Assembly (NCBI RefSeq): GCF_000148725.1
Contig: NZ_GL476311.1
Span: forward strand, 255,501 to 319,500
Reading direction: 5' to 3'
Source of the DNA: Roseibium sp. TrichSKD4
GTDB lineage: Bacteria; Pseudomonadota; Alphaproteobacteria; Rhizobiales; Stappiaceae
DNA length: 64,000 nucleotides
Part shown: piece after piece, positions 24,991 through 61,496 of the stretch
Numbering within the stretch: position 1 is the stretch's first letter
Layout of the letters: each line of letters begins with the position of its first letter
The notes under the pieces: generated by a model
The model's database searches: none
What the model saw: only the letters and a program-made list of their open reading frames with translations
What the model was told of the DNA's origin: nothing
Position numbers and translations under genes: made by a program

Positions 24991-25866
24991 ATGTCTGCTT
25001 CGACGACAGAGCGCCGTGAACTGGTGCGTAAGGCAATGAAAGCGCCCTACCTGACCCGCGAAGAGGAGCATGACCTCGCGGTGAGATGGCGGGACAACCG
25101 CGATGAAAAGGCGTTGGAGAAATTGTCTCTCTCCCATACACGCCTCGTCATATCCGTTGCTTCAAAATTCCGGAATTTCGGTTTGCCTCTCGGGGACCTC
25201 ATCCAAGAAGGCCATGTTGGTCTTCTTGAAGCTGCTGCCCGGTTTGAGCCGGAGCGGGAAGTACGATTTTCGACCTATGCCACCTGGTGGATCAGGGCGT
25301 CGATCCAGGACTATATTCTTCGGAACTGGTCGATTGTTCGGGGCGGCACGTCTTCTTCCCAAAAGGCCCTGTTCTTCAATCTTCGGCGCTTACGCGCAAA
25401 GCTGTCCGGAAACCAACAGAATTTGACCGACAGCGAACTGCACCAAAAAATTGCGGATGCCATTGGTGTCAAGCCAGCCGATGTTGCGACCATGAATGCA
25501 CGTCTGTCCGGGCCGGATACCTCGTTGAATGCTCCGGTAACAGATTCCGAAGGGTCAAGCTCGGATCGGCAGGACTTTCTCGTGTCTGACGCTCCGCAGC
25601 CCGATGATATTGTATCAGAAAGCATCGACACGGAGCGCCGCCGCAAATGGTTGGCCTCGGCCATGACGGTTTTAACCGACCGGGAGTTGAAAATCGTTCG
25701 GGAGAGGCGGTTGACCGAAGAAGGGGCGACACTTGAGTCCCTTGGGCAAAAGCTTGGTATTTCCAAGGAGCGCGTGCGTCAGATCGAAAGTCGCGCAATG
25801 GAGAAGCTCAAAACGGCATTGATGGATGCAAACCGATCTGGTTCGCTTGTGCCAGCAGCCGTTTGA
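24991..25866 (+). CDS. rpoH: RNA polymerase heat-shock sigma factor (sigma-32)
   Basis: 291 aa from the ATG at 24991, which has AGGAG 8 nt upstream; the frame is open further upstream but runs through the carD terminator. Region 2 (GLPLGDLIQEGHVGLLEAAA, then REVRFSTYATWWIRASIQDYIL), the RpoH box (QKALFFNLRRLR), and region 4 with its C-terminal HTH (LESLGQKLGISKERVRQIES) are all present. It directs heat-shock or related stress promoters. Divergence in region 3 suggests an RpoH2-like paralogue, but this cannot be settled here. Confidence 0.93.
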   Translation: MSASTTERRELVRKAMKAPYLTREEEHDLAVRWRDNRDEKALEKLSLSHTRLVISVASKFRNFGLPLGDLIQEGHVGLLEAAARFEPEREVRFSTYATWWIRASIQDYILRNWSIVRGGTSSSQKALFFNLRRLRAKLSGNQQNLTDSELHQKIADAIGVKPADVATMNARLSGPDTSLNAPVTDSEGSSSDRQDFLVSDAPQPDDIVSESIDTERRRKWLASAMTVLTDRELKIVRERRLTEEGATLESLGQKLGISKERVRQIESRAMEKLKTALMDANRSGSLVPAAV

Positions 25867-35846: not shown

Positions 35847-36136
35847 ATACAGCCTTGGCCTTTGAGCCTGCAGGCGGAGTGGCTGCCCCGCTGTCACAGC
35901 CGGAACAGTTCCGTCTGGTAAAGACCAGCAAGCAAGGTGTCCGTTATTACTTCATGGGCAAAAGAGACCCTGTTGAGGCTCAAAGTGGAGACTGTGTTTT
36001 GGTCGCTCAGACCAGACCGTTTGCCGGTGACGCTTGCGTATTCTTGAATGAAGCCGAAGCTCGCACTGCGATGCGGGCTTTAAATTCCAGCCGGATCAGC
36101 GATGCGTTTTGGGAGATGGAGCCGGTTCATGACTGA
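35843..36136 (+). CDS. Hypothetical early phage protein
   Basis: 97 aa from the ATG at 35843 (ATGA overlap with the upstream gene). Not recognised. It contains aromatic-rich segments (RYYFMGKRDPVE, DAFWEMEP) and overlaps the next gene by 8 bp. One copy of the phage palindrome CGGAACAGTTCCG lies inside its coding sequence at 35901-35913. Confidence 0.6.
   Translation: MNTALAFEPAGGVAAPLSQPEQFRLVKTSKQGVRYYFMGKRDPVEAQSGDCVLVAQTRPFAGDACVFLNEAEARTAMRALNSSRISDAFWEMEPVHD
35901..35913. repeat. Palindrome CGGAACAGTTCCG, copy 1
   Basis: Perfect palindrome inside an early gene. Other copies are at 36491-36505 and 40551-40563 (last base degenerate), 42066-42078 (central T), 46358-46372 and 55011-55023. 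Confidence 0.6.
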
Positions 36137-36388: not shown

Positions 36389-36505
36389 AGCCCCGCGCTT
36401 TCCTGCTGCGTGGGGTGACAGGTCGCGGGGCTGTGCGGGGGCAGCCCTGCGACCGAGCTAACCAGACCAATCCCTATTCCAGTCAACCTGCCGGAACAGT
36501 TCCGG
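36389..36505 (+). promoter_or_regulatory. Structured leader with mutually exclusive hairpins
   Basis: Segment 1 CAGCCCCGCG (36389-36398) is perfectly complementary to segment 2 CGCGGGGCTG (36424-36433). Segment 2 also pairs with segment 3 (36442-36454, CAGCCCTGCGACC) as a 13-bp stem with one G-U. The palindrome CCGGAACAGTTCCGG (36491-36505) follows, ending 6 nt before the Shine-Dalgarno sequence. An attenuator-like or antiterminator-like arrangement. Confidence 0.5.
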
Positions 36506-36520
36506 CGGAAAGGAGAACTT

Positions 36521-37012
36521 ATGTCTGAATTGAACAAGGCCTTTGCCCTTATCAGCAAACAAATCGATGCAGCCAAAACCTTTGAAGATGATGAAGCTGT
36601 CCGGGAATGGCGCGGTGTAATTGATCTGTTGGGGGAGTTGCAGCTCCACCGCGACGTTGCAGCGGGCAAGCGCCGCCCTGTCATCCCGTCAGATGATGCT
36701 TCTCCGCGCAATTGGGACATTCTGGATTTCGAGAGCGCCAGACGTTGCATCAAGGAACTGATTGAGCTGACCAGTGGTGAGGGCGCGGACTGGATCGAAA
36801 GCAAGTTGGAAGATCTGGTCAATATCGAAAACTGCCTCGCCTATCTGGAGGATCTGGCTGCCCTGATTGTTTCAATGGAAAGTCAGGCAAGCCTCACGGC
36901 CTTCGGCGTTCATGCCATGTCAAAGAGGCTTTACGAGAAGGTGGATACCAGGCTCGATCAGCTCTCAAAACAGATAGCAGACCAACGTGAACTCGGGAGA
37001 CTGGAAGCCTGA
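36521..37012 (+). CDS. Hypothetical early phage protein (helical)
   Basis: 163 aa with a good ribosome site (AAGGAG, 6 nt spacer). Predicted largely alpha-helical, acidic, with probable coiled-coil at the C-terminus (KRLYEKVDTRLDQLSKQIAD). No family recognised. It is the first gene after the structured leader, so its expression may be the target of that regulation. Confidence 0.7.
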   Translation: MSELNKAFALISKQIDAAKTFEDDEAVREWRGVIDLLGELQLHRDVAAGKRRPVIPSDDASPRNWDILDFESARRCIKELIELTSGEGADWIESKLEDLVNIENCLAYLEDLAALIVSMESQASLTAFGVHAMSKRLYEKVDTRLDQLSKQIADQRELGRLEA

Positions 37013-41788: not shown

Positions 41789-42214
41789 ATGATTTGCACA
41801 CTCACATATCAGCAGGCGGCACTTGCTATCGGCTATCGGGCACTTGGTGAAAGCCCGACCTATATTGCCGCTCAGCTTAAGAGAGACGAGGCGGAGATCC
41901 GCAAGCTGCTCAACGGTGTTGCTGCCAGCTTTGAGCCGATGCTTTTTGCCGAGGATCTTCTTTATTGCAAGGAACCACGCCTGCCGATTGCGCGGCCCCG
42001 GATATCGGCCAAGCCGAAACCGGCAGCAGCGTCTCCTCCAGCACCACAGCGCAGGCCAACCCGTGCGGAACTGTTCCGTAAGTGGAAGCCGGTGCCGGTT
42101 GTATCTTTGTCACGTCCTCAAGCCGATGTGACAGCCGAGTTGATGGGCGATCCACCGCCTGGTCGATCCGCCGCCAGCCGATCCGCCCATGACCAATCCA
42201 TCCCATACTATTGA
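41789..42214 (+). CDS. Hypothetical phage protein with Pro/Ala-rich linker
   Basis: 141 aa. The first 45 residues resemble a short HTH (AIGYRALGESPTYIAAQLKR). A basic, Pro/Ala-rich segment follows. The phage palindrome variant CGGAACTGTTCCG (42066-42078) lies in the 3' half. Function unknown. Confidence 0.6.
   Translation: MICTLTYQQAALAIGYRALGESPTYIAAQLKRDEAEIRKLLNGVAASFEPMLFAEDLLYCKEPRLPIARPRISAKPKPAAASPPAPQRRPTRAELFRKWKPVPVVSLSRPQADVTAELMGDPPPGRSAASRSAHDQSIPYY
42066..42078. repeat. Palindrome CGGAACTGTTCCG, copy 4
   Basis: Same arms as the other copies with T instead of A at the centre. It is within a coding sequence, 149 bp before the DUF3164 gene. Confidence 0.55.
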
Positions 42215-43282: not shown

Positions 43283-43530
43283 CCAAGGCTCCTGTTGCCG
43301 TCACCGATCATGCCGTTGTCCGGTTTCTGGAACGTGTCATGGGCATGGACCTGTCGCCGGTGCGCGAGCTGATCCGCCATGAAGCGGAAATTGGTGTGCG
43401 CTACAGCGCAAGCGGCGTTCGGCTTCAGGGGATCCGCTACATCTTGCAGGACGGGTCTGTCGTCACCGTTGTCTGCCGCAAACCCAAATCCCAGGAAGAG
43501 CTGGACAGGAGGATGGAAGATGTCCGGTAG
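43279..43530 (+). CDS. Small hypothetical phage protein
   Basis: 83 aa from the ATG at 43279, overlapping gemA by 4 bp and the Mor-like gene by 11 bp. The sequence (VTDHAVVRFLERVMGMDLSP, then LQDGSVVTVVCRK) resembles the DUF4258/RelE-like small fold, but no catalytic set is evident. Function unknown. Confidence 0.65.
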   Translation: MTKAPVAVTDHAVVRFLERVMGMDLSPVRELIRHEAEIGVRYSASGVRLQGIRYILQDGSVVTVVCRKPKSQEELDRRMEDVR

Positions 43531-43942
43531 TTCCCTGTTCCATACGGAAGACATGGCCGACATTGCCGCGATCTGCGGTGATGATGTTGCCCTTGAGCTT
43601 CTGGAAAAGCTGCCCGGTGTTGAGGTGAAGATCCCGACACAATGGACAGAAGACAACCCCTTGTCGCGCCTATCGCGCGAAACCGCTGAAACGCTGATTG
43701 CGACGTTTCCGGGCGACAAGTTCTACATCCCGACCAAGAAGGGCCGCGCCAGCATTGCCACCGCCAAGCGCATGAAGAAGGAAGGCTTCAAGAACTGCGA
43801 TATCGCCTTCGAACTCCATGTGTCGGAACGCTATGTCCGCGATCTGGTTCGTGAAGGTCGTGGTGGGCGTAGAGCGCGGGCACGTGTGGTCGATGACCGG
43901 CAGATTGATCTGGAAGATTTACTGAACAGGAGCGAAGGCTAA
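43520..43942 (+). CDS. Mor-like transcription activator
   Basis: 140 aa from the ATG at 43520 (the frame is open further upstream inside the preceding gene). It matches the Mor/C activator family: IAAICGDDVALELLEKLPGV, then FYIPTKKG, and a C-terminal HTH (KEGFKNCDIAFELHVSERYV). In Mu, Mor turns on the middle promoter and C the late promoters; here a single recognisable member may control the late operons, including those behind the two palindrome modules. Confidence 0.88.
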   Translation: MSGSSLFHTEDMADIAAICGDDVALELLEKLPGVEVKIPTQWTEDNPLSRLSRETAETLIATFPGDKFYIPTKKGRASIATAKRMKKEGFKNCDIAFELHVSERYVRDLVREGRGGRRARARVVDDRQIDLEDLLNRSEG

Positions 43943-45920: not shown

Positions 45921-46295
45921 ATGCAAGAAACCGTTTCGATGAATGCCTATCGCTCTGTTCGGGATGAGCGTGACGAGCTTGAATGCAGGGTCCAAGAACT
46001 TGAAGCTATTCTGAAAGCCAATTTTTCATTTCCGACGGATTGGAAATTAGGTAGCCTTCAGGCTGATTTGTTGAGGCATTTGATAAGCTGCAATGTGGCC
46101 TCTTTTGATAGTATCTCCAGCATTGTTTGCTCGGCTGCAGATGACGTTCCTTGCGAGCGCGCAATCCGCAGTTTGATCGGATTGTTGCGGAAAAGACTGG
46201 CACCACTTGGAATACGCATTAAGAACAATCGTGGCGTGGGATGGTGGCTTTCTGATGCCGATAAAGCGAAAATTCGCTCGCTGTCCTCCAAATAG
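45921..46295 (+). CDS. Winged-helix protein with N-terminal coiled coil, possible late regulator
   Basis: 124 aa from the ATG at 45921. A short coiled coil (RDERDELECRVQELEAILK) precedes a domain like the OmpR/PhoB winged helix (LQADLLRHLISCN...AIRSLIGLLRKRLAPLGIRI...GVGWWLSD), without a receiver domain. It is more A+T-rich than its neighbours. It is the last gene before the late-operon module at 46354 and could regulate it; this is inference from position. Confidence 0.65.
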   Translation: MQETVSMNAYRSVRDERDELECRVQELEAILKANFSFPTDWKLGSLQADLLRHLISCNVASFDSISSIVCSAADDVPCERAIRSLIGLLRKRLAPLGIRIKNNRGVGWWLSDADKAKIRSLSSK

Positions 46296-46353: not shown

Positions 46354-46428
46354 TGCACCGGAACAGTTCCGGCGCATTTTCCGAGTAAATTCAGCATCCT
46401 CGCCTCAACATTTTAATTTGTTGAGGCG
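46354..46428 (+). promoter_or_regulatory. Late-operon module A: palindrome terminator plus SD-sequestering hairpin
   Basis: Hairpin TGCACCGGAA-CAG-TTCCGGCGCA (one mismatch) followed by TTTT, 46354-46380. Exactly 30 nt after TTCCGG comes a second hairpin: stem CGCCTCAACA / TGTTGAGGCG (46401-46410, 46419-46428), whose 3' arm holds the GAGG Shine-Dalgarno of the endolysin gene (ATG at 46434, 7 nt away). Module B at 55006-55079 has the same layout. Confidence 0.7.
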
Positions 46429-46433
46429 TTTTC

Positions 46434-47633
46434 ATGTCGATTGTCCAAACCTTGCGCCAAGGCGGCGGTGAGACCCTTGATATCCAGCCAGCGATTGATG
46501 CAGCTGCGCTCAGGATCAGTTGTAGTGCGCTGGTTCTTGGGGCGATAATTCAGGTGGAAAGCGGCGGCAAGGCATATGACAGTCAGGGCCGCCTGATCAT
46601 CCTTCCCGAACGGCATATCTTCTATCGCAAGCTCCCGAAGGGTCTGCGCGGTCAGGCCATGCGCATGGGGCTGGCCGTCAAGCGCTGGTCTCGTGCGAAC
46701 TATCGCGGTCTCGGCAAGGCTGGCTCTGATGCCCGCTGGGAGCTGATGGAGGACTTCGCCAAGGTCAATGAGGAGGCTGCGCTGCAATCTGCCAGCTATG
46801 GCGGCCCGCAGATCATGGGGTTCAACTACAAGGTCTGCGGGTATGCCAGCGTTACGGATTTCGTGCTGGCCTTTGCTGAAAACAATCTTAACCAGATCGA
46901 CGCCTTCATCCGGTTTCTGGAACGCTCCGGCCTGTCTCAGGATTTGAGAGAGGCAGATTTCGAGGCGATTGCCCGCCGCTACAATGGTCCGGGTCAGGTC
47001 AAACACTATGCGGCATTGATGCGCCGTGCCTATGCCAAACTGGGCGGAGATCAGTCCGACACCCACAAGGATGTCAACCTGCTCAAGCTCGGTTCGGAAG
47101 GGTATCGGGTCGAAGCACTGCAAAAGCGGCTTGCCAGCCTTGGCTATACACTGCGCCCCGATGGTGACTTTGGCCCGGCGACCAAACGGGCCGTTGTCGG
47201 ATTTCAGGTGGATCACGGTTTGACGCCCGATGGTGTTGTCGGACCCAAAACCCAAGAGGCGTTGGAAGCCGCCGTGCCGGTCAACCAGCAGCCGGGATCC
47301 AGCCGCGAGGGTTTGACTGTGAAGGATCTGCGCAAGAGCGGGTCGCAGACCGTTAAAAACGCGGACCGTCTAACGCAGATTGGCGCGGCTGTTATCGGAA
47401 CCAGCGCTGCTGCAACCGGCCTTGAAGAAACCGGCAACGGGGTTTTGGGCGGGCTTGGCGAAGTGACCAACACCCTGCAGGCGATCCGTGCCCAGGTCGA
47501 ACCACTCCTTGAACTGATTTCCCAGAACCGCTGGATGGCGTTTGCCGCAATTGGTCTGGCTGTTGTGATCATCGCCAATCGGATCAAAGCGCGCCGTCTT
47601 GAAGATGCGCGGAACTGGAGGCATCTGGGATGA
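46434..47633 (+). CDS. Endolysin: N-acetylmuramidase + peptidoglycan-binding domain + C-terminal TM
   Basis: 399 aa. The N-terminal N-acetylmuramidase domain (DUF3380 type; about 25-200) has the catalytic Glu region VLGAIIQVESGGKAYDSQGR and the segment GGPQIMGFN. A PG_binding_1 domain (about 218-280; LKLGSEGYRVEALQKRLASL, DGDFGPATKRAVVGFQ) follows. A linker and a hydrophobic helix at about 367-385 (WMAFAAIGLAVVIIANRI) with a basic tail end the protein. A C-terminal membrane segment on an endolysin is unusual. It overlaps the holin gene by 4 bp. Confidence 0.88.
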   Translation: MSIVQTLRQGGGETLDIQPAIDAAALRISCSALVLGAIIQVESGGKAYDSQGRLIILPERHIFYRKLPKGLRGQAMRMGLAVKRWSRANYRGLGKAGSDARWELMEDFAKVNEEAALQSASYGGPQIMGFNYKVCGYASVTDFVLAFAENNLNQIDAFIRFLERSGLSQDLREADFEAIARRYNGPGQVKHYAALMRRAYAKLGGDQSDTHKDVNLLKLGSEGYRVEALQKRLASLGYTLRPDGDFGPATKRAVVGFQVDHGLTPDGVVGPKTQEALEAAVPVNQQPGSSREGLTVKDLRKSGSQTVKNADRLTQIGAAVIGTSAAATGLEETGNGVLGGLGEVTNTLQAIRAQVEPLLELISQNRWMAFAAIGLAVVIIANRIKARRLEDARNWRHLG

Positions 47634-52105: not shown

Positions 52106-53454
52106 AGCGGGCAGCTAGCGATTTTGCAGACGATAGCGGTTCGCTTGCCGATGCCATTTCTTTCCATCGCCAGAAAATCCGCCTGCCGACCGAGACCTGG
52201 GCGGACCTTCTTCATCATGCCCATGATCGCGGATTTGTGGTTGCGGGGGCAAAGAAAGACGCTCTACTGGAAGATTTCCAGAAGGCGATAGATGATGCGA
52301 TTGCCAAAGGCATGCCGTTTAAAGGCTGGCTGGACAAGAACGATGTCTATCATCCGGGATTTCTGGATCGCTTTGACGAGATCGTCAAACGCCATGGCTG
52401 GTCCTACAAGGGAGGCCGCGAATGGCGGGCACGGGTCATCTACGAGACCAACCTGAAATCAGCCTATGCCGCTGGCCGTTACAAGCAGATGACGGACCCG
52501 GATGTCCTGAAGGTCTATCCCTATTGGCAGTATGTCCACGGGCTTCGACGTGTTCCTGATAGCCCCCGCGAAGAACATGAAGCATGGGACGGCTTGATCC
52601 TTCGGGCCGATGATCCGTGGTGGGAGACCTATTATCCTCCCAATGGCTGGAAGTGTGGCTGTGGTGTCAGGCCGATCTCAAAACGCAAACTTAAAAAACT
52701 CGGCAAATCGGAACCTGATCCGTCTCCTGTGATCGAGACTGAAGAGCGCCGGGATCCGGGCACGGATGAATGGATCCGCTATCCCAAGGGTGTCGATATG
52801 GGCTGGGCCTATGCGCCGGGCCGCACATGGGCTGACGGGCTTGTGCCACGGGAGCTACAAAAGCCGCTGGGTCAGCAGATGGAGTTGCCGGGATTGGAGC
52901 GGCTGCCAGCCTTGCGAAACTTTGCCAAGCCGGTCACGGCTCCTCTTCTCGACAAGGGGTTGCCGGAAGAGGGCTATGTCCGGGCGTTCCTGACCAGGTT
53001 CGATGCCGACATTGACGACCCGGCCCTGTTCCGCGACAAGGCGGGTCATGTGATCGTGGTGTCGGATGATCTCTTCAAGACACCGGCAGGCAAGTCCAAG
53101 CTTCTGGTTGATGATCCACGTGGAGAGCGTGTCAACACAAGCCGGGCAGCTGCACTGGCGCAGTTGGCAGAGGCGTTAAAGGATCCCGACGAGATCTGGA
53201 TTGACTGGGAATGGCATAAGGACCGGAAAAGATGGTTCCTGAAACGTCGCTACCTACGGGCCTCTCCTGACCTTGCCGGTTTGGTTGTCTTTGAATGGTC
53301 ACAGGCCGGATGGCGCGGCACAACGGCCTATAACGCCGAGACAGGCAAAAAGGCCAAACGCAAACCGAACTTCAATCAGCTGGAAACGTGGCGACATGGA
53401 GCGTTGCTTTATCGTCGCCGAGTAGAGGAACCTGAAAATGAAAAAGGCAGCTGA
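52102..53454 (+). CDS. Phage head morphogenesis protein (Mu gp30 / SPP1 gp7-like MuF)
   Basis: About 450 aa. The conserved N-terminal segment (FHRQKIRLPTETWADLLHHA, then HDRGFVVAGAKKDALLEDF) begins well before the first standard start at GTG 52237, so the true N-terminus must be upstream. Options are a non-standard CTG at 52102 overlapping the portal stop or entry by -1 frameshift from the portal. The middle contains the MuF signature (RARVIYETNLKSAYAAGRYKQ, then WKCGCGVRPIS). A minor head protein involved in capsid assembly. Confidence 0.85.
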   Translation: MKRAASDFADDSGSLADAISFHRQKIRLPTETWADLLHHAHDRGFVVAGAKKDALLEDFQKAIDDAIAKGMPFKGWLDKNDVYHPGFLDRFDEIVKRHGWSYKGGREWRARVIYETNLKSAYAAGRYKQMTDPDVLKVYPYWQYVHGLRRVPDSPREEHEAWDGLILRADDPWWETYYPPNGWKCGCGVRPISKRKLKKLGKSEPDPSPVIETEERRDPGTDEWIRYPKGVDMGWAYAPGRTWADGLVPRELQKPLGQQMELPGLERLPALRNFAKPVTAPLLDKGLPEEGYVRAFLTRFDADIDDPALFRDKAGHVIVVSDDLFKTPAGKSKLLVDDPRGERVNTSRAAALAQLAEALKDPDEIWIDWEWHKDRKRWFLKRRYLRASPDLAGLVVFEWSQAGWRGTTAYNAETGKKAKRKPNFNQLETWRHGALLYRRRVEEPENEKGS

Positions 53455-55005: not shown

Positions 55006-55079
55006 CGCGTCGGAACAGTTCCGGCGCGTTTTTTTGTTTGCCGCGCCATGGTGGCTTCAACATTGATCTTGTTGGAGCG
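55006..55079 (+). promoter_or_regulatory. Late-operon module B: palindrome terminator plus SD-sequestering hairpin
   Basis: Stem CGCGTCGGAA-CAG-TTCCGGCGCG (10 bp, one G-U) followed by seven T: a strong intrinsic terminator (55006-55035). Exactly 30 nt after TTCCGG comes a hairpin with arms GCTTCAACA / TGTTGGAGC (55054-55062, 55070-55078), the 3' arm holding GGAG, the Shine-Dalgarno sequence of the GTG at 55085 (7 nt away). Same geometry as module A. Confidence 0.72.
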
Positions 55080-55084
55080 CCAGC

Positions 55085-56308
55085 GTGCCGAAACCAGCTG
55101 CCCAAAAACCGAAGAAAAGCGAGAGCGAACCGACCACGCGCCGGATCGAGGTGTTCCGTCCAGGAACATTCACAGCAATGAATGGTGTGTCATTTACGGC
55201 AACGGATGAGGATCTGGCCGGGCTGGCTGCGCGCTATGATGCAACGTCCAGCCCGGCTCCGGTTGTCATTGGTCACCCCAAAACGGACACGCCTGCCTAT
55301 GGCTGGGTGGAGTCCTTTTCATGGGACGAGGATAGTGAGCGCCTGATTGCCGAGATTGGTGAGCTGGAACCGCAGTTTGCCGAAGCGGTGTCTGAAGGGC
55401 GCTACAAGAAGATTTCCATGTCCTTCCATATGCCGGGGTCAACGTCAAACCCGGCAGGCGATGCGCTTTACCCAAAGCATGTCGGTTTTCTGGGAGGGGC
55501 GGCTCCTGCGGTTCCCGGTTTGCAGCCGGTCTCCTTTGAGGGTTCGGACGATGACACTGTCACGGTGGAGCTGTCGGAATTTGCCGAACCGGCCTTGAAA
55601 GATGTTGCAACGCTGTTTCGCAAGTTCCGCGAATGGCTGATTGACGAGCGCGGTGTTGAGACCGCCGACCAGGTCGTTCCCGATTTTTACATCCGCTGGA
55701 TCGATGACGCGGGCGATGAGCCTGCTGCCCTGGACCCATCATCCAGTTTTTCTGATCCAATTTCTTCAAACGAGGACCCAATCATGCCCCGTTCCCTTCT
55801 GCGCGGCAAACGTTCCAAACCGCAGCCTGCCCAGTCTCCATCTGAACTCCCGGAAGATGATGCCGCCTTTGCCGACCGGGAAGCGCAGCTGTCTGCCCGC
55901 GAACAGGAGCTGGCGGATCGCGAGGCGGCCCTTGCCCATGCCGACCATGTGGCCTTCGCTGAAACTCTGGTGAGTGATGCGAAAATGCCAAGTGGCAATG
56001 TCCCGCGTGTTGTGGCGCTTCTCGACTGTCTGTCGGCCATGGAACCAGAAGAGGTCTCTTTTGCCGATGGCGATAAGAAGATCGTCACCGAGCCGCTGCA
56101 GCTGATGAAGGATCTGCTCAAGTCCCAGCCCAAGCTGGTTGAGTTTGGCGAGACGGAACTGGGCGAGGAACCGGCTGGCGAGGCCGATCCATCAACCCTT
56201 GCCGCTGAAGCGCTCGCCTTCCAGGCATCGCAGAAGGAGGCGGGGGTTGAGATCTCCATTTCCGATGCGGTCACGCATGTCGAACAAAAGCGCGGGATCG
56301 GCAAGTAG
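55085..56308 (+). CDS. Phage prohead protease with fused scaffold (Mu I/Z-like)
   Basis: 407 aa from a GTG start with GGAG 7 nt upstream. The N-terminal protease domain (about 1-170) has GHPKTDTPAYGWV and YKKISMSFHM, as in Mu gpI-type proteases. The C-terminal half is a coiled-coil scaffold (ADREAQLSAREQELADREAA). As in Mu, an in-frame internal start can make the scaffold alone. First gene of the head operon behind module B. Confidence 0.9.
   Translation: MPKPAAQKPKKSESEPTTRRIEVFRPGTFTAMNGVSFTATDEDLAGLAARYDATSSPAPVVIGHPKTDTPAYGWVESFSWDEDSERLIAEIGELEPQFAEAVSEGRYKKISMSFHMPGSTSNPAGDALYPKHVGFLGGAAPAVPGLQPVSFEGSDDDTVTVELSEFAEPALKDVATLFRKFREWLIDERGVETADQVVPDFYIRWIDDAGDEPAALDPSSSFSDPISSNEDPIMPRSLLRGKRSKPQPAQSPSELPEDDAAFADREAQLSAREQELADREAALAHADHVAFAETLVSDAKMPSGNVPRVVALLDCLSAMEPEEVSFADGDKKIVTEPLQLMKDLLKSQPKLVEFGETELGEEPAGEADPSTLAAEALAFQASQKEAGVEISISDAVTHVEQKRGIGK
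55784..56308 (+). CDS. Nested scaffold protein (Mu gpZ-like), internal in-frame start
   Basis: 174 aa from the internal ATG at 55784 (MPRSLLRGKRSKPQ), which has GAGG 8 nt upstream. It shares frame and stop with the protease gene and covers only the coiled-coil scaffold part. Nested I/Z-type coding is established for Mu; here it is inferred from the ribosome site. Confidence 0.6.
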   Translation: MPRSLLRGKRSKPQPAQSPSELPEDDAAFADREAQLSAREQELADREAALAHADHVAFAETLVSDAKMPSGNVPRVVALLDCLSAMEPEEVSFADGDKKIVTEPLQLMKDLLKSQPKLVEFGETELGEEPAGEADPSTLAAEALAFQASQKEAGVEISISDAVTHVEQKRGIGK

Positions 56309-60977: not shown

Positions 60978-61496
60978 ATGGCTGACTACAAGCGCTACGG
61001 TCAGATCGTGAATGCCGAATGTTACCTTGAGGACAACAGCCTTGTGGGTATCGTGAAGGAGTTCAAGATCCCGAAGATCGAATGGAAGACGGTCGATATC
61101 GAAACCCTTGGTCAGGTTGCTGTCTACAAGGCACCGACACGGGTGATGGAAGCCTTGACCGGGTCCATGACGTTCCAGTTTATCGAGCCGGAGATCGCCG
61201 CGCAGGTTTATAACCCGGCCAAGGCGCTTCGCTTCCAGCTCCATCAGTATGTGGATGTAAACGGGCCGGACGGTTTTGATCTGGAAAATTCCTACACGTT
61301 GATCACTCTTGTGTCGCTTAGGTTCTTCGGAGCCGAGTTTGGCGGAACGAAGCTTGGTGATCTGGAAGAGCAGGAAACCGAGTTCACCTGCCACCGGCTG
61401 CTTCAGCGTGTTCATGATAGTGACAAGACGCTTTTGGAAGTTGATGTGTTTGCCAACACGGTTCGGAACTCTTCCGGCGAGTTCTGGCGTCGGTAA
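60978..61496 (+). CDS. Major tail tube protein
   Basis: 172 aa. Matches the FII-type tail tube family: FKIPKIEWKTVDIETLGQVA, VMEALTGSMTFQFIEPEI. Forms the inner tube within the sheath. A strong terminator follows, setting high expression of sheath and tube apart from later tail genes. Confidence 0.92.
   Translation: MADYKRYGQIVNAECYLEDNSLVGIVKEFKIPKIEWKTVDIETLGQVAVYKAPTRVMEALTGSMTFQFIEPEIAAQVYNPAKALRFQLHQYVDVNGPDGFDLENSYTLITLVSLRFFGAEFGGTKLGDLEEQETEFTCHRLLQRVHDSDKTLLEVDVFANTVRNSSGEFWRR

Follow-up and report, generated by a model that had tools for sequence, protein, structure and literature searches.

The window analysed here, a stretch of 64,000 nt from Roseibium sp. TrichSKD4, carries a Mu-like prophage in its right part. 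The endolysin, the protease and the terminase of this prophage are 100% identical to those of the IMG/VR record G001, and matching of the palindrome places described below relates both coordinate systems as window = G001 + 28650. The features under study are listed in Table 1. Within the same prophage region, positions 52237-53454 encode a fusion of a Mu F-like head protein with a PBECR2 nuclease domain (Pfam, E=2.1e-29).

Table 1. Features of the two modules and of the C gene in window coordinates.
Feature	Position	Strand	Basis
Late activator C, Mor/C family, about 140 aa, with recognition helix SERYVRD	43520..43942	+	phrog_836 'late transcriptional activator' E=9.9e-15
Putative C operator of Plys, half-sites GGAAC/GTTCC (hairpin 1 of the earlier note)	46359..46371	+	
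T tract 3' of the Plys operator	46377..46380	+	
Predicted -10 element of Plys, CATCCT, with A(-11) and T(-7)	46395..46400	+	family alignment
Predicted transcription start (+1) of Plys	46407	+	family alignment
lys hairpin 2, CGCCTCAACA/TGTTGAGGCG	46401..46428	+	folding
SD GAGG of the endolysin gene	46423..46426	+	
Endolysin (N-acetylmuramidase + peptidoglycan-binding domain)	46434..47633	+	Pfam PF11860 E=1.7e-42
Putative C operator of PI	55011..55023	+	
Predicted -10 element CATGGT of PI	55047..55052	+	family alignment
Predicted transcription start (+1) of PI	55059	+	family alignment
I hairpin 2, CTTCAACA/TGTTGGAG	55055..55077	+	folding
SD GGAG of the protease/scaffold gene	55074..55077	+	
Head maturation protease/scaffold (Mu I/Z homologue)	55085..56308	+	phrog_976 E=2e-97

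An earlier note on this DNA had described a module of common layout in front of two different genes, one for the endolysin (lys) and one for the protease/scaffold (I), and both copies were found as described, with the palindrome CGGAACAGTTCCG followed by GCGC[A/G]TTTT at each place. The spacing to the second hairpin is indeed equal in both copies, but it is not the exact 30 nt of that description, as 33 nt separate the palindrome from TCAACA and 24 nt lie between the first TTTT and the same motif. The TCAACA/TGTTG ends of the second hairpin, the Shine-Dalgarno (SD) sequence within its 3' arm and the gap of 7 nt between the SD and the start codon are likewise present in both copies, in agreement with the same source. 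At up to two mismatches, the window contains 17 copies of the palindrome compared to 3.4 expected, a count that none of 100 shuffles reached, and none of 200 dinucleotide shuffles folded as well as either of the first hairpins (z -3.35 and -3.39).

Loci of related phages were collected through a terminase alignment, from which the best 80 of 122 (genome contigs) and the best 80 of 529 (viral contigs) were taken; the 70 de-duplicated loci, the 61 modules and the 37 C loci reported below were all drawn from these best-80 sets. The module proved to be conserved in these relatives, where the earlier note had proposed to look for it. The arms of the I-leader palindrome recurred near the lys position, in the 2.9-kb stretch upstream of the terminase gene, in 45 of the 70 de-duplicated loci, a few of which (e.g. 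L081, L113 and L179) seem spurious, judged by their place or sequence. The control was counted differently, with 27 of 168 tested palindromes matched in 5.8 kb control stretches per locus, and the related list of matches downstream of I held further real copies together with GCGGC-type matches. A module pair with the same layout is also present in the relative G002, and in RcapMu, RcWaterboi and RR1-B, this layout is built around other palindromes, which are near-identical inside one phage and differ among these phages. After three distant loci were dropped, the rest were anchored on the right half-site TCC, yielding 74 modules, 61 of them non-redundant.

Beyond this first set, 124 of 169 candidate loci had a C-type match; 36 were removed as duplicates or as too similar to that set, and the 88 tested are relatives of the first set and partly dependent on it. 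A GGAx...xTCC palindrome was found near the C stop in 33 of these 88 loci, and the other 55, also with a C-type match, had no such palindrome within 60 nt of the C stop. An exact-pattern scan of the viral contigs with CGGAACAGTTCCGGCG gave 36 stretches, three of them in the window phage and three in G002, and the other 30 had no visible module in their flanks. In host genomes, matches of CGGACNNNNGTCCG were fewer than those of the reversed control in 6 of 6 cases; thus, it is not an enriched host motif.

From sequence comparison, the first palindrome is best read as a DNA operator, probably bound by a late activator of the Mor/C type. Within single phages, the lys and I palindromes could be compared in 40 pairs (loops of 1-7 nt allowed, near relatives included): the loops were identical in 8 pairs, of different sequence and equal length in 31 and of different length in one. 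Hence, the spacing of the half-sites is common to both palindromes in 39 of the 40 pairs, though the loop sequence differs in 32.

A gene of the Mor/C type was detected upstream of the lys operator in all 37 loci with modules by our own profile, which was seeded with RcapMu27, RR1-B19, the G002 C and Mu C and then iterated. Its stop codon lies 2-17 nt 5' of the operator in 30 of these loci and elsewhere in the remaining ones, the distance in the window being 2416 nt. The window C ORF, which starts with the ATG at 43520 behind AGGAGG, was matched by the iterated profile with E=3e-34 and by Pfam Mor with E=0.0025, the latter under the cut-off. Among the PDB chains, 9l0x and 9vw8 ('Late transcription activator C') matched the C profile with E about 2e-4, and the Mor chain 1rr7 with 0.065. 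A small ORF directly 5' of lys (45921-46295) has the look of an OmpR/PhoB-type winged helix. It was considered as the activator and rejected, as its sole match was Trans_reg_C under the cut-off (E=0.044) and a C-type gene is present at the position given in Table 1.

The operator bases follow the recognition helix of C. In 70 C/operator pairs (37 used for finding the rule and 33 others), the residue after VR was R in 51 of 51 GGAC operators, in 1 of 16 GGAA and in 0 of 3 GGAG; within the 33 pairs outside rule-finding, the corresponding counts were 24/24, 1/7 and 0/2. The residue directly before VR was H in 49 of 51 GGAC pairs and Y or W in 14 of 16 GGAA pairs. The operator class changed 6 times on the C tree compared to a shuffled mean of 17.5, and among relatives, a switch of operator goes with a switch of helix (L093 versus RR1-B/L146; L251 versus L074). 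Controlled for terminase, a partial Mantel test between operator and C was non-discriminating, and operator distance correlates about equally with terminase distance and with C distance (partial r 0.26 and 0.25).

At a fixed distance from the palindrome, the module alignment revealed a second signal. An A occupies position -11 in 51 of the 61 non-redundant modules (background A 0.21), namely +26 after TCC in 27/31 modules of width 12 and 10/11 of width 13, and +25 in 14/19 of width 11, for which the offset of 25 in place of 26 was chosen after data inspection. The other columns that stood out beyond the palindrome and the T tract were T at +30, C at +36 and A at +37 after TCC, so that on promoter numbering the family signature reads A(-11), T(-7), C(-1), A(+1), corresponding to a -10 element plus a start. 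Relative to the predicted start, the dyad centre lies at -43.5 (width 12) and at about -42 in the window; in the accessible part of PMC4287176, Mor at Mu Pm is drawn with its dyad at -43.5. The further loci agreed less strongly, 20 of 33 having the A where -11 was predicted (p 2e-6). On sequence grounds, the module is best read as a late promoter, the putative counterpart of Mu Plys and PI.

Additional operators were found outside the lys and I leaders. RR1-B has two more, before its tape-measure and baseplate genes, and an Agrobacterium vitis prophage has two at places like those in RR1-B, with one gene behind an operator sharing its first codons with the RR1-B baseplate gene. A third operator of the window phage (G001:40524) also fits the promoter signature, and A was present at -11 in all five of these extra operators. 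The two tape-measure-like copies are without CA at -1/+1. In the baseplate-like copies, one each in RR1-B and the A. vitis prophage, an ATG stands exactly at the predicted +1, so that a leaderless mRNA would result. These likely leaderless late mRNAs map to L050 31112-31163 and L258 107-160, in two Mu-like phages with different operators.

Exact copies of the palindrome also exist at 35901, 36492 and 42066 of the window (with a centre T at 42066), where no late-promoter geometry was seen. The copy at 36492 lies directly 5' of the SD of an ORF starting at 36521. Palindrome-like sites, apparently near the end of a coding sequence, were noticed at window position 61464, at 25603 of reversed G002 and, in L061, 5993 nt after the I start. 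The three early-region copies are perhaps feedback sites of C. These same copies, and those elsewhere in G002, could also speak for the palindromes being stoperator-like sites of a repressor or another phage DNA-binding protein, with C not involved. The fixed distance to the -10/+1 signature and the correlation with the C recognition helix both speak against such sites, and we consider this explanation very improbable.

The earlier note had proposed another role, with hairpin 1 as an intrinsic terminator of the upstream operon and with hairpin 2 hiding the SD until a phage protein opens it. The folds of both window copies are terminator-like: the 55-kb copy has a 10-bp stem (55006-55028) followed by seven T and fits the rule of a GC-rich stem plus a T-run, and the 46-kb copy has nine pairs with one mismatch directly before TTTT, so that the hairpin extends to the T-run, its place outside the terminator list being due to the five T that the rule needs. 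The lys hairpin 2 with its own TTTT fits a terminator-like pattern as well. In the family, an unbroken stem of at least 7 bp with at least five T in the next 9 nt was found in 20 of the 61 modules, a lower bound as stems with a mismatch were uncounted; the other 41 are without this combination, which weighs against a terminator, as does the position of the T residues. Where TTT is present (36 modules), it sits at a more constant distance from the operator than from the stem end (sd 2.8 versus 4.2), with exactly 5 nt to the operator in 16. The SD is hidden in long RNAs, as that model says, but a protein to open it is unneeded if the RNA starts at the predicted +1. Termination as the main role of hairpin 1 was rejected because loop length is kept within phages (31 of 32 differing loops being equal in length), the half-site bases track the C recognition helix and the distance to -10/+1 is fixed; as a side role, the hairpin may still terminate too. 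Taken as a whole, the model of the earlier note is unlikely, if less so than the repressor sites. A dual use of the palindrome, as C operator in the DNA and as terminator of read-through RNA before C acts, is rated slightly below even odds for part of the phages, including that of the window. It would join the operator evidence to the terminator-like folds of both window copies and of the 20 modules, and with the C gene ending 2-17 nt before the operator in 30 of the 37 loci, this would be a useful place for a terminator; symmetric outer bases are, however, expected of a dimer site anyway.

The reading that we prefer, with a probability of roughly 0.76, is that every module joins a Mu-like phage's late promoter to a translation lock. 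It draws on the computed correlation between operator and recognition helix, the promoter geometry, the SD pairing in long compared to short RNAs and covariation, from which we infer the binding of C, the start sites and the effect on translation.

The pairing of the SD was predicted for RNAs with different 5' ends in the 59 non-redundant modules to which a start codon could be assigned (three others were dropped for lack of one). The median unpaired fraction of the SD was 0.02 in RNA from the operator, 0.04 from -14 and 0.37 from +1, compared to 0.36 (from -14) and 0.38 (from +1) in shuffled leaders and to 0.42 (from -40) in 307 control genes of the same loci; start codons were assigned by SD score, and SD motifs of 3 nt were allowed in the modules and of at least 4 nt in the control genes. 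The long RNA hid the SD more than the short one in 47 of the 59 modules (p 1e-6) and no more in the other 12. When the 5' end was slid along the leader, the opening of the SD rose between -8 and 0 relative to +1 and then reached a plateau. The lys leaders were less clear than the I leaders (median 0.18 versus 0.01 from -14). Matched arm/SD duplexes had -8.3 kcal/mol compared to -5.2 ± 0.28 for permuted ones, with 0 of 2000 permutations as good, and among the further loci, the effect was weaker, the SD being more hidden in the long RNA in 22 of 30 (p 0.005) and less than 0.1 unpaired in 12 of 30.

Covariation in relatives, another check proposed in the earlier note, supported the pairing. In 14 I leaders picked for similar length, the score was 0.370 versus 0.234 in shuffled alignments (0/500), and the hairpin 2 helix had 85.7% standard pairs with two-sided changes in 11 cells versus 4.9 in the shuffled ones (0/500); two of the five measures were unexceptional (44/500 and 114/500). 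At the level of the aligned leaders, hairpin 2 is kept by its pairing, and its sequence is not kept. The predictions thus agree with the earlier suggestion that hairpin 2 occludes translation, the SD being hidden in the long RNA and open from +1; the phage protein suggested to open it is not called for, since an RNA starting at the signature +1 would avoid the hairpin.

In the window, the arm at 46401-46406 pairs with the lys SD region and is missing from an RNA starting at 46407. With this arm, the lys hairpin 2 has -18.9 kcal/mol (z -5.6), and without it -3.8 kcal/mol (z +0.8), the predicted unpaired fraction of the SD being 0.00 from -14 and 0.37 from +1. The corresponding I arm (55055-55058) is missing from an RNA starting at 55059; the fold has -19.6 kcal/mol in the long RNA and -8.1 from +1, the SD goes from 0.01 (-14) to 0.34 (+1) unpaired, and this leader is unexceptional for its composition (z -0.93, 33/200 shuffles as good). 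At the RR1-B tape-measure operator, the SD changed from 0.00 to 0.53 unpaired, and at the third operator of the window phage, no SD change was found (0.21/0.21).

In the mechanism that we propose, a dimer of C would occupy the palindrome, about 42-44 bp 5' of the start as Mor does at Mu Pm, and would recruit RNA polymerase to a poor -10 element with A at -11 and T at -7. The polymerase would start inside hairpin 2, at the predicted late starts 26-27 nt 5' of the start codon in the window. As the stretch directly 5' of +1 is complementary to the SD, read-through RNA carrying it would fold and hide the SD, whereas RNA begun at the late promoter would be without the anti-SD arm and could be translated. 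With read-through RNA silent and promoter RNA open, the endolysin and the head protease would be produced mostly from their own activated promoter. Such a lock would explain how the lysis enzyme is held back until late, even though the operon may be entered by polymerase coming from upstream. If correct, this reading also gives a large group of transposable phages exact positions for late promoters and for the operators of the activator, and Mor/C proteins a simple recognition-helix rule.

Translation locks are known in phage T4 for gene e (lysozyme), soc, 49 and I-TevI, as given in the part of PMC3014915 available to us. As described there for gene e, and as predicted for the modules, the SD is hidden in a long read-through RNA, the 5' strand of the hairpin coincides with a late promoter and is missing from the late RNA (here by the predicted start), and a cell-wall lysin is guarded. 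Unlike in T4, an unrelated phage in which the late sigma activates the promoter, activation here would depend on a Mor/C protein, the lock would also serve the head protease, and its sequence is rewritten among phages with the pairing kept. The likeness appears to be one of mechanism, and no descent is claimed. The translation inhibition structure of Mu com/mom, according to the accessible text of PMC6483171, also holds the start signals of a late gene in an RNA stem, but there the Com protein opens the stem in trans, whereas here the hairpin would be avoided by the place of the RNA start.

In Mu itself, the late promoters Plys, PI, PP and Pmom and the middle promoter Pm are activated by C and Mor, as far as described in the consulted parts of PMC4461284 and PMC4287176. 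The window-type phages resemble Mu in the C-type activator gene upstream of lys, in the order lys - terminase - portal - I with promoters, here predicted ones, before lys and I (accessible part of PMC4461284), in the dyad at about -43.5 from the predicted start with a non-consensus -10, and in the T tract, since the available descriptions show six T in the spacer of Mu Plys and Pmom. They differ from Mu in the operator GGAx...xTCC and in the modules before the tape-measure and baseplate genes of RR1-B, with like places in the A. vitis prophage. They also differ in the SD-pairing arm directly 5' of +1, for which no description was found for Mu; likewise, in the mostly open-access literature, within the parts available of PMC4461284, PMC4287176, PMC3014915, PMC9936078, PMC4378225, PMC5488378, PMC9239132 and PMC6483171, neither these modules nor a lock in the leaders of Mu lys or I was found to be described.

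The Mu leaders were folded with starts deduced from the oligonucleotides of PMC4461284, which by design extend 20 nt past the start; these starts are thus exact to plus or minus 1. With these published starts, the late RNAs of PI and Plys would be without the 5' strand of the hairpin. The PI leader had -14.7 kcal/mol from -14 (z -4.2) compared to -1.5 from the start, and the Plys leader -13.9 (z -1.9) compared to -2.8 kcal/mol. The Mu SD is only half hidden in the long RNA, the unpaired fraction rising from 0.49 to 0.78 (PI) and from 0.49 to 0.84 (Plys) when RNA begins at +1. In these folds, PI, and less clearly Plys, would behave like the modules, and since PP starts about 350 nt before gene P, there is no lock at PP. 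Mu, the classic model phage, may then carry a T4-type lock before its head operon and perhaps before its lysis operon. More broadly, we see even chances that Mu-like phages, Mu included, make the translation of their late operons depend on an RNA start at the right promoter, each phage having its own version of a segment directly before +1 that pairs with the SD or start region, or else having the start codon at +1, and read-through RNA being silent. In the read-through RNA predicted for Mu Plys (L215 10444-10490), the lys start codon is covered by pairing with the stretch directly 5' of the published start.
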